Of a stretch of 64,000 nucleotides of DNA, positions 4,305-17,065 are shown piece after piece (positions within the stretch are counted from its first letter, which is position 1; the number at the start of each line of letters is the position of its first letter). The notes beneath the pieces are model-generated. The model saw nothing but the letters and a program-made list of their open reading frames with translations, was not told the DNA's origin and ran no database searches. The stretch is from Gemmatimonadota bacterium (GTDB taxonomy: Bacteria; Gemmatimonadota; Gemmatimonadetes; Palauibacterales; Palauibacteraceae), in contig JAGWBR010000015.1 of the NCBI GenBank assembly GCA_021295785.1, positions 1-64,000 on the forward strand. The letters run 5' to 3'. Both the position numbers and the translations under genes were made by a program.

Positions 4305-5531
4305 ATGCCAAACGCCCGCACTCAACCAAGAGCCACACGCTCCGGTGCCGCCCTTTCTCTGATGCCGGGGGGACCGCTACTGCTGCTTGCCGCGCTATTG
4401 GCCGCGTGCCAGGGCGCCGAACAGGACGGATACGGCGAAACTGCCGAGGTTACCCCAAGCGATATCGCGGATCCGGCGGCGGCCGGGCTCCCCAACCCCA
4501 ATCCGGTGGTCAACAAGAACTGGGCGTTGTTGCCGGACGACCGGCAGTGGGGCTCAACGGCGGGAATCGACATCGATCCGATCGACGGGCACATCTGGGC
4601 GTACGACCGGTGCGGCGCGGTGGGCCTGACGGGTGGATGCGACGCCAACGAAGTCGATCCCGTGTTCAAGTTCCACCGGGAGACGGGGGAGATTCTGGCC
4701 AGTTTCGGGGCTGGATTGTTCGTGCTTCCCCACGGCATCCACGTGGACGCGGGCGGAAACGTCTGGATCACAGATTCGATGGGGAACGAGGCCGGTACCA
4801 AGGGGCACCGGGTGATCAAGTTCAGCCCGGACGGCGAGGTGTTGCTGGTGCTGGGTCACGCCGGGCAGCCCGGGACCGAACCCGGCTACCTGAATGAACC
4901 GTGCGACGTGATCACGGCCGCCGACGGCAGCATTTTCGTTTCCGACGGTCACAGCGGGCAGAACGCCACCATTCCGGAGGGAGCCACCGGCCGCATCATC
5001 AAGTTCACGGCCGACGGGGAGTACGCGGCCGAATGGGGACAGATCGGCGACGGCCCCGGCGAGTTCCGCACCCCGCACGCGCTGGCTTTCGACTCTGAGG
5101 GGCGCTTGTTCGTCGCGGACAGGGGAAACCACCGGATCCAGATCTTCGACCAGGAAGGCGGCTATCTGGACTCATACTACCAGTTTTCCCGCGTTAGCGG
5201 CTTGTTCATCGACAGCCACGACAACCTCTACGCGATCGACTCGGAATCGAACCACGACAACCACGACGGTTGGGCGACCGGGATCCGCATCGGGCACGCG
5301 TCGGAAGACCGGGTTACGCATTTCATTCCCCCGCATCCGTCGGAACGAGGGCCGCAGGGAGTTGCCGGTGAAGGCGTGGCGGTGGACGGGGACGGGAATG
5401 TTTACGCGGCCGAGGGTCCGATCTCCCGGGCAGACGCCGGGGGCGGAATCACCAAGTACGGGACTGACCCGGCAGCGGAGGCCGGGCCAGACGGCAACTC
5501 TGAGGAGGGATCCGAACCCGAGACGGCGTGA
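4305..5531 (+). CDS. NHL-repeat beta-propeller lipoprotein
   Basis: A 408-aa secreted protein. The ATG at 4305 follows a GAAAGAGG site and gives a classical lipoprotein leader ending LLAALLAAC. A TTG 36 bases upstream is possible but less likely. The body contains repeated NHL-type strands such as VIKFSPDGEVLLVLG, IIKFTADGEYAAEWG, and DRGNHRIQIFDQEG, as in six-bladed propellers related to peptidyl-alpha-hydroxyglycine amidating lyases. Propellers of this type bind ligands or act as lyases; the exact role cannot be read from sequence. The tail is acidic (EEGSEPETA). It diverges from the DUF6152 operon. Confidence 0.85.
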   Translation: MPNARTQPRATRSGAALSLMPGGPLLLLAALLAACQGAEQDGYGETAEVTPSDIADPAAAGLPNPNPVVNKNWALLPDDRQWGSTAGIDIDPIDGHIWAYDRCGAVGLTGGCDANEVDPVFKFHRETGEILASFGAGLFVLPHGIHVDAGGNVWITDSMGNEAGTKGHRVIKFSPDGEVLLVLGHAGQPGTEPGYLNEPCDVITAADGSIFVSDGHSGQNATIPEGATGRIIKFTADGEYAAEWGQIGDGPGEFRTPHALAFDSEGRLFVADRGNHRIQIFDQEGGYLDSYYQFSRVSGLFIDSHDNLYAIDSESNHDNHDGWATGIRIGHASEDRVTHFIPPHPSERGPQGVAGEGVAVDGDGNVYAAEGPISRADAGGGITKYGTDPAAEAGPDGNSEEGSEPETA

Positions 5532-14673: not shown

Positions 14674-14710
14674 CGATGCCGGGCGGGGCTGGCGGGAGCG
14701 GTTGGGGCTG

Positions 14711-15442
14711 ATGCTGCTGAACTGCGACATGGGCGAGAGCTACGGCCCCTGGACCAAGGGTTCCGACGAAGCCGTGATGCCGCTCACGGACCTCGCGAAC
14801 ATCGCCTGCGGCGGGCACGCGGGTGACCCCGACACAATGGCCCGGACCCTTGAGCTGGCGGCGGAGCACGGAGTCCGCCCGGGCGCGCATCCCGGTTATC
14901 CCGACCGGCGCAATTTTGGTCGGCTCCGGTTGGACTGGCCGACCGAGTCTCTGGTTCGCGAGACGCAGGCCCAGATCGGCGCTCTGTCGGCGATCGCACG
15001 GGCCCTGGGAACCCCCCTTTTTCACGTCAAGGTGCACGGGGCGCTTTACCTGGCCATGATGAAGGACGACCACCTGTTGAGGCGTCTGGCCGAAGGGGTG
15101 GCGGCGGCGGACCCTTCGCTTGTGTTCATGGTGCAGGCCACCCCCGACCGCGCGCGTTACGAGGAGCTTCTCGCCCATACAGGGCTGACGCTGATGTTCG
15201 AGGCGTTTGCCGACAGGGCTTACGGGGCTGACGGACACCTCGTGCCCCGCTCGCGGGCCGGGGCCGTTTTGACCGAACCGGACGCCGTTGCGGCCCACGT
15301 CCAGAACATGCTCGGCGGGTTTGTCGAGACGGCCGGCGGCCGGGTGGAGTTTGAAGCAGAGACGCTCTGCGTGCACGGCGACAACCCGGCGGCGTTTGAA
15401 GCGCTGACGCGTGTGCGGAAGGTGATCCCGCGGCGGAACTGA
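14711..15442 (+). CDS. pxpA: 5-oxoprolinase subunit A (LamB/YcsF family)
   Basis: A 243-aa subunit of the ATP-dependent 5-oxoprolinase PxpABC, which opens 5-oxoproline to glutamate. The family opening NCDMGES is at residues 4-10. IACGGHAGDP, RPGAHPGYPD and a VKVHGALY block follow in the standard order, and an ETLCVHGDNP motif lies near the end. I chose the ATG at 14711 because family members start only two or three residues before NCD; a TTG nine bases earlier is the alternative. The next two genes complete the complex. Confidence 0.93.
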   Translation: MLLNCDMGESYGPWTKGSDEAVMPLTDLANIACGGHAGDPDTMARTLELAAEHGVRPGAHPGYPDRRNFGRLRLDWPTESLVRETQAQIGALSAIARALGTPLFHVKVHGALYLAMMKDDHLLRRLAEGVAAADPSLVFMVQATPDRARYEELLAHTGLTLMFEAFADRAYGADGHLVPRSRAGAVLTEPDAVAAHVQNMLGGFVETAGGRVEFEAETLCVHGDNPAAFEALTRVRKVIPRRN

Positions 15443-16122
15443 TTTCGTTTCCGGGGCCGACCAGCGCCCTCGTAACGCTGCCCGTCGCGCCGGACCGCGT
15501 GGGGGTAGGCCGCGTGCTTCAGCTGGAGCGACACGTCAGGAGCGAATTCGCCGGCGTGCGGTCCACCGTGCCGGCCTTCAACCGGTTGTTGATCGAAGGC
15601 GCGCCGGACCTGTGGGACCCGGACCGGATTCGGTCGCGGCTGGCCGGGGCCGTTCAAGCGGTCCTCGAAGAAGAGGAGCCCGGCATGCCGGACGCAGCTC
15701 CGGTCATCCTGCCCGTGTGCTACGGTTCTGACATGGGTCCCGACCTGCCCGCTCTGGCCGGCCACCGCGGCATGACGCCCGATGAAGTCTCCGACCTGCA
15801 CGCGGCCGGGACCTACGTGGTTCTGGCCACGGGGTTTGCACCCGGTTGGGCCTACCTGGGGGACGTCGACCCGCGGCTGGAGTTTCCGCGCCACGCGGAG
15901 CCGCGCAGCCGGGTGCCCCGTGGTTCGGTCGGGATCGCGGACAGGCGCACCGGCGTCTACCCCATGGACGGCCCGGGCGGCTGGCAGTTGATCGGTCGGG
16001 TACCCCCCGCCCTTTTCGCGGATGCCTCGGTGCGGATCGCGCGATTCTCGGTTGGGGGCCTGGTCACGTTCCGTCCCGTGTCGCGCGCCGATTACGACGC
16101 AGAGGCCGGGGATCCGGCGTGA
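15439..16122 (+). CDS. pxpB: 5-oxoprolinase subunit B (KipI-like)
   Basis: KipI-type subunit B, pairing with subunit C to phosphorylate and open 5-oxoproline. Conserved blocks include LPVCYGSDMGPDLPALA, the LHAAGTYVVLATGFAPGWAYL core, and RSRVPRGSVGIADRRTGVYP followed by GPGGWQLIGR. The first standard start codon is GTG at 15499, but family similarity (PTSALVTLPV) continues upstream of it. A non-AUG start at CTG 15439 or ATT 15442, overlapping the pxpA stop, is therefore likely, giving 227 residues. The stop overlaps the start of pxpC as GTGA. Confidence 0.85.
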   Translation: MISFPGPTSALVTLPVAPDRVGVGRVLQLERHVRSEFAGVRSTVPAFNRLLIEGAPDLWDPDRIRSRLAGAVQAVLEEEEPGMPDAAPVILPVCYGSDMGPDLPALAGHRGMTPDEVSDLHAAGTYVVLATGFAPGWAYLGDVDPRLEFPRHAEPRSRVPRGSVGIADRRTGVYPMDGPGGWQLIGRVPPALFADASVRIARFSVGGLVTFRPVSRADYDAEAGDPA

Positions 16123-17065
16123 GCCCCGGCGGCGGCCGGGCAGTGCCAAGCGCGGTAGTCGGTGCCCCGGGGCCCTGGTGCACCGTGCAGGACATGGGAC
16201 GCACACGCGGGCGGAGGGCCGGACTCTCTCCAGGCGGGGCGATGGACCGGCGCGCCTGCCTCTGGGCCAATCGGCTGCTCGGCAACGATCCTCGCGCCCC
16301 CGTGCTGGAAATCGCACTCGGTGGTTTCTCACTGACATTTGAGTCTGCGGCGACCGTGGCTCTTACCGGGGCCGGCTGGCGCCCCCCCGGGGGGGGGGGC
16401 CTGGCCGCCCCGGTAAGAGCCACGGTCGCCGCAGACTGGCATACAGCGCAACCGGGATGCGGGCCTATCTGGCCTTCCCCGGTGGTCTCAGGGCCGAAAA
16501 GGCGTTCGGGTCCGCATCGGGCGTGGCCCGCGACGGACTGCAGGGCCTGCTCGGGCGGGCCCTGCGGGCGGGCGAGCGGATCGAATGGCTGGATCCCTCC
16601 GCGGGCCGTCTGGCCCGGAGGGTGCCGGCGGCGATGGTCCCCCGGCCACCTCCGCCGGCCGGGGCGGCGGCGGAGGTGCCGTTTGTTCGCGGCTACGAAT
16701 GGGACGAATTCTCCAGGGCCGACCGGCAGGCGTTCCTGGATACGGAATGGGAGATCGAACCGGCCAGCGACCGCGTCGCGACCAAACTCTCCGGTCCGTC
16801 GCTCGAGTCAGGCCCCAGGGTACTGGACTCGGCTCCGCTGGTCGACGGTACCGTTCAGGTTACGGGCAGCGGCAGGCCGCTCGTGTTCATGCGCGACCGG
16901 CCGACCATTGGGGGCTACGCCAAGTTGGGCGCTGTCGATCCGCTGGCACTGGATGGGCTTGCCCAGGCCCGGTCCGGGACCGCTATTCGGTTCGTGCCCG
17001 GCCAACCCGCCCGCATGCGCGAGGAAATGGCGCGCCACGAGCGGTTTTTTGGCCTGTCCCGGTAA
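16119..17065 (+). pseudogene. pxpC: 5-oxoprolinase subunit C (KipA-like), frameshifted
   Basis: The GTG start at 16119 overlaps the pxpB stop. The N-terminal half reads as a KipA protein: APGPWCTVQDMGRTRGRRAG, SPGGAMDRRACLWANRLLGN, and VLEIALGG, up to VALTGAG near 16375. The frame then fails, and family sequence resumes one frame over at GMRAYLAFPGGLRAEKAF (from 16457). It continues to the end with VRGYEWDEFS and PTIGGYAKLGAVDPLALDG. The break coincides with a C7G11 homopolymer inside a 31-base perfect inverted repeat. This is either true gene damage or a sequencing or assembly fault; adding one base in the G run would restore the frame. Confidence 0.8.
16343..16437. repeat. 31-base perfect inverted repeat with C7G11 centre inside pxpC
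   Basis: The left arm (16343-16373) is the exact reverse complement of the right arm (16407-16437). Between them lie a partly self-complementary stretch and the run CCCCCCC followed by eleven G. A hairpin this long inside a coding region is exceptional, and both arms would have to code for protein. It could be a fold-back assembly artefact. Confidence 0.9.

Follow-up and report, generated by a model that had tools for sequence, protein, structure and literature searches.

The window analysed here is a stretch of 64,000 nucleotides from the draft genome of a Gemmatimonadota bacterium (GCA_021295785.1, contig JAGWBR010000015.1) and contains a pxpABC operon on the + strand. The first gene, pxpA (14702-15442), encoding 5-oxoprolinase subunit A, is intact, matching PF03746 (E 1.1e-81) and scoring above the cut-off of the NCBIfam PxpA subfamily NF003816. 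No break was seen in pxpB (15445-16122; carboxyltransferase subdomains C and D), which matches PF02682 over positions 15445-16119 (E 2.9e-54); its open reading frame as listed starts at 15499. The third gene, pxpC, is present as two genuine parts in different frames, and its CT_A_B domain (PF02626) is discontinuous, with about columns 53-82 lost. The 5' part (16122-16376, + strand) covers columns 2-52 (E 1.1e-16) and aligns with relatives up to VALTGA, and the 3' part (16436-17065, + strand), which resumes at LAYSATGMRAYLAF, covers columns 83-261 (E 2.9e-43) and also aligns with relatives. An earlier note on this DNA had placed the frame loss of pxpC at a C7G11 run, and the matches of the upstream and downstream parts to PF02626 in different frames agree with this.

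A near-palindrome of 96 nt (16342-16437) lies between the two pxpC pieces. It consists of an inverted repeat with arms of 47 nt (16342-16388 and 16391-16437) and a complementarity of 91%, with the C7G11 run (C7, 16382-16388; G11, 16389-16399) as its centre and the axis at 16389.5, leaving no true loop. All five mismatches among the 48 mirrored pairs are located within the inner 17, and the outer 31 match perfectly. The perfect inverted repeat of 31 bases around a homopolymer, described in the earlier note, is indeed present, and the end of the span given there (16343-16437) is correct; the true start is one base earlier, at 16342. Three segments could be distinguished, i.e., the left arm (16342-16372, + strand), a filler (16373-16406) of G and C with only two T besides, which includes the C7 and G11 runs and contains the five mismatches of the palindrome, and the right arm (16407-16437), which is the perfect inverted copy of the left arm and thus lies on the - strand. 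The left arm encodes ESAATVALTGA and aligns with those relatives whose sequence reaches that far; it is genuine pxpC and the source of the copy, and the right arm is not genuine. With loops of up to 600 allowed, 60 first-order Markov surrogates of the window yielded no perfect inverted repeat longer than 17 nt, versus 31 nt observed, and the expected count of 31-nt arms from base composition was about 2e-10. The length of the palindrome is far beyond chance. Long perfect inverted repeats within protein-coding genes are also present in mitochondria of Nematomorpha; however, both arms encode conserved protein there (PMC6649704), which is not the case for the right arm in pxpC.

The downstream part of pxpC was used as a query against 100 genomes (this genome and 99 relatives) and was found in 31 of the 99 relatives searched. 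The earlier note had pointed to the residues between VALTGAG and MRAYLAF as those to be compared with homologues, and this comparison bears out its suspicion that genuine sequence is lacking. In the 23 relatives measured (L004-L026; six distant loci and places without the locus were left out), the segment from VALTGA(x) to L(x)Y is conserved, being 75 nt long in 22 relatives and 69 nt in one (23-25 residues), versus 59 nt in the window. The best scores of the 59 nt translated in the three + strand frames were attained by 159, 32, and 120 of 200 shuffles, respectively, and were 19-26 versus a native median of 109 obtained when one relative was compared with the others. Judged against shuffled letters, likeness of the filler and right arm to the native PxpC segment was absent in every + strand frame. 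The nearest named relatives were metagenome-assembled genomes (MAGs) of Gemmatimonadota, with 3 of 27 titled Candidatus Palauibacter; the search yielded no other genome of this species, and the best relatives were about 64% identical in PxpC. These data also bear on phase variation, in which slippage in the G tract would toggle pxpC on and off. The location of G11 at the frame change is in line with such a switch. However, slippage may restore a frame but not missing conserved residues (23-25 in the relatives versus 59 unrelated nt here), and a glycine/proline run occurs at this site in no aligned relative. A phase-variable homopolymer was rejected on the ground that no tract length would restore a normal PxpC, the conserved residues being missing in every + strand frame, and its probability is considered close to nil.

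The structure could also be read as the result of a real template switch, in which a nascent strand copied 31-48 nt of pxpC backwards and returned to its template further on, so that the conserved segment was deleted and pxpC inactivated. Left sequence followed by a reverse-complement copy and a return to the same strand is the anatomy of the four-point model as outlined in PMC7954356, in which two short-range switches yield a perfect inverted repeat together with a net deletion. At pxpC, an inverted local copy is present and the original strand is regained after it, and the new sequence is partly templated, since the inner 17 pairs are palindromic with five mismatches. The remaining operon is without a break, as would be expected after a recent mutation. 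A fold-back with one switch only, as in a simple MDA product or a hairpin read, was rejected because the sequence regains the original strand and the downstream gene. The earlier note had proposed that a fold-back artefact replaced genuine pxpC sequence; this proposal is supported, but a simple fold-back with a single switch is at odds with a gene that resumes downstream.

The draft genome comprises 2,176,790 bases in 36 contigs and is 85% complete. There are 26 runs of at least nine G, 13 per strand, and when all 26 loci were scanned, five of the runs were found to adjoin a local inverted repeat whose longest perfect piece was 22-71 nt. The five fold-back sites are in pxpC of the window, ruvA, fabG, an NrfD-like gene, and one unnamed gene. 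Two more G runs, in kdsB and at the lpd-lipB junction, substitute for sequence without an inverted copy. The seven patches share a layout in which genuine left sequence is followed by G/C-rich filler with a G run and then by genuine right sequence, with a segment missing, and five of them contain an inverted copy of nearby sequence. Comparison with relatives, carried out for five genes only (pxpC, ruvA, fabG, kdsB, and the NrfD-like gene), showed the loss of a segment in each. Nine runs outside the fold-back sites, kdsB and lpd-lipB among them, were assessed by visual inspection of the translations, whereas the final 12, of which 11 lie on the minus strand, were checked for open frames alone, without homologue comparison. 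Of the 19 runs besides the seven patches, these 12 showed no clear break; the other seven include G10 runs in open frames that we take to be topA-like and GMC-type, and a G15 run, which may or may not be disruptive, after what is presumably a groEL-like gene. In a sample of 812,836 bases from the same genome, which was not aimed at G runs and includes the window, given because of its palindrome, perfect arms of at least 20 nt with a loop of at most 600 were found at three sites. Two of these were the window and fabG, both with G11, and the third was a hairpin of 20 nt with a loop of 22 and without a long run. An AT-rich inverted repeat of 19 nt with a loop of 126 was also noticed elsewhere in the genome (G000 C28; L121:5541-5704), with no long G run nearby. 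A mobile element was ruled out, as the copied sequence was local and different at each of the five sites.

In ruvA (G000 C21:77625-77839; L093:1409-1623), the left part extends to LDDL and is followed by G/C filler with a G21 run, a 70-nt inverted copy, and EELVKAALAVA, and an open ruvB start lies downstream of the broken gene. The left part of fabG (G000 C20:3163-3381; L089:1420-1638) stops at ADAGAR and the right part restarts at NAGITRDN; the fold-back beside G11 is made up of four perfect stretches (22, 20, 18, and 14 nt) that share one axis, and the copy has several mismatches to its source. The gene for an NrfD-like membrane subunit is on the minus strand (G000 C1:82122-82356; L083:1543-1777) and has a 71-nt fold-back with an adjoining G12, in which the copy is derived from the other flank and the loop is 93 nt. 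The unnamed gene (G000 C33:57595-57800; L106:1512-1717) has a fold-back next to G9, with pieces of 26, 14, and 15 nt that share an axis. The patches without an inverted copy are a G24 inside kdsB (G000 C20:10263-10286) and a G53 (G000 C19:2126-2178) between the ends of two genes that we presume to be an lpd-like gene and lipB.

Based on these results, it is very probable that the palindrome in pxpC is an artefact, i.e., a poorly closed region of the draft assembly and not DNA of the organism, and the living bacterium probably has an intact pxpC. This reading is supported by the recurrence of the pattern, with five fold-backs beside runs of at least nine G and two sequence-replacing G runs in the same assembly. 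It is also supported by the genes affected. Both fabG and kdsB are presumably essential genes, and both are broken here, with no close second copy found in the 85% complete genome (other fabG-like places were at most 39% identical, and kdsB gave a single match). Since the assembly is only 85% complete, a second fabG or kdsB could have been missed, and the argument from essential genes is strong but not final. Under a real template switch, on the other hand, five separate loci of a single genome would have been affected, all beside a + strand run of at least nine G and one of them in the only close fabG found, and the two further G runs that replace sequence, one of them in the only kdsB found, would be left aside. 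The second proposal of the earlier note, a real hairpin-mediated mutation that kills the oxoprolinase, is accordingly disfavoured, as the same patch recurs at other loci including fabG and kdsB, and template switching is regarded as an unlikely origin of the pxpC palindrome. It could also be imagined that the lineage repeatedly switches templates at GC-rich hairpins, producing untemplated G-rich filler and inverted copies, and that broken alleles of essential genes were assembled from a mixed population, but we hold this to be very improbable.

The length of the fillers is of further relevance to the artefact reading. The fillers approach the native length at the four fold-backs measured, i.e., pxpC, ruvA (139 nt vs 144-159 nt in 15 relatives), fabG (146 nt vs about 165 nt, counted by hand in one relative), and the NrfD-like gene (115 nt vs about 117 nt, both counted by hand, with one relative). 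Such agreement points to gaps that were closed under a distance estimate, whereas a mutation would have no reason to refill the lost length. The filler of kdsB (43 nt) does not fit, being far below the native 90-99 nt (14 relatives), and counts against the artefact reading. As described in PMC7954356, the four-point model predicts neither G/C filler, nor G bias, nor a filler of near-native length, and the sites described here also differ from it in the bias of the contig strand and in the recurrence in presumed-essential genes.

The G runs of the fold-backs were all on the + strand of the contigs (5/5), with the 26 runs split 13:13 (chance 0.02), which is a further argument for an artefact; this count is unaffected by the uneven scrutiny of the runs. 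When all disruptive runs were considered, 7/7 were on the + strand (p 0.016), a figure to be read with the uneven scrutiny in mind, as the minus-strand runs were examined less closely. Runs of at least 12 G were distributed 5 versus 0 between the strands, and runs of at least seven 163 versus 168. A base bias was also seen within two of the palindromes. In the window and ruvA, which are both without a loop, the mirror mismatches comprised 18 G-G and 2 C-C (p 0.0004, the pairs not being independent), and for 15 of the 17 mismatches in ruvA, the left arm shows G although C would be expected from the mirrored arm. This excess of G-G mismatches in the window and ruvA would likewise favour an artefact. 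However, the bias was weaker at fabG (9:6), the unnamed gene on C33 (6:2), and the NrfD-like gene (8:4), with loop or flank counted in, and this counts against the artefact reading; the copies at fabG and C33 also have other types of mismatches.

Long G runs are not confined to this genome, and runs of at least 12 G were present in 51 of the 99 relatives. About 30 to 108 such runs per genome were recorded in G098, G075, G065, G091, and others. Many of the long G runs of the relatives, among the places listed, lay no more than about 150 bases from a contig end. Fold-backs with arms of at least 20 nt were found at none of 20 long-G/C-run loci from relatives. This result counts against the artefact reading; it was also the reason for taking the fold-back class as a trait of this assembly and not of the clade. 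Among 124 loci of relatives (400,556 bases), four inverted repeats of at least 18 nt were found, i.e., 29 nt with a loop of 29 in L153, which is hairpin-like, 20 nt with a loop of 385 in L031, 18 nt of low complexity in L190, and 22 nt with a loop of 19 in L156. The last of these belongs to a different MAG of the class (G089:C11, at about 4594-4656) and consists of G15, 17 N, and C17 in succession with inverted flanks. Provided that the N run represents an assembly gap rather than a withheld stretch, the pattern is that of G tails bordering a gap, as expected under the artefact reading.

The way in which the artefact arose is less certain. In two-colour sequencing, absent signal is read as G. 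Reads may fail within GC-rich stretches, where base calls would drift to G and the read tails be miscalled, and a G-called tail could then have been joined to a read, inverted or folded back, that was anchored on the opposite flank, by which the gap would have been bridged. We would give this particular route an even chance. It has the difficulty that a G tail at the 3' end of a read accounts for where a run begins on the left, whereas the genuine same-strand sequence after it is not directly explained. A chimera from library preparation or whole-genome amplification, with an inverted join and a deletion, assembled at low coverage without a separate gap-closing error, is another technical route that overlaps with the one above, so the two assessments are not exclusive; it is considered possible but the less likely course. 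The junction between the right arm and the downstream gene has the form of an inverted join, and in inverted chimeric reads a reverse-complement copy of nearby sequence is likewise joined with loss of the intervening segment. Inverted joins accounted for 406 of 475 MDA chimeras, with inverted sequences and intervening deletions (PMC1855051), and ordinary library preparation also yields inverted-repeat chimeric reads (PMC10908179). However, a chimera would account for one junction but would leave the G/C filler, the bias to G, and the two copy-less G runs unexplained, and there was no sign that the genome was amplified. The present sites further differ from such reads in that the copy also joins G/C filler and the defect is within finished contigs at several loci. 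No description of G-run filler with an inverted copy inside finished contigs was found in a limited literature search with combined terms.

Because of the patch, a pxpABC operon that otherwise looks intact appears to contain a pseudogene, and ruvA, fabG, kdsB, and others are broken by the same defect. Conclusions about lost genes or reduced genomes drawn from such drafts could mislead. A run of at least nine G beside a short-range inverted repeat within a conserved gene is a signature that is easily scanned, and the hairpin in pxpC could be useful as a flag of assembly quality. Apart from this, a contig titled Bacteroidota (JAJCYP010000042.1; L183) encodes a PxpC that is 55% identical to the Gemmatimonadota pxpC product here, which possibly reflects a mislabelled bin or a transfer.
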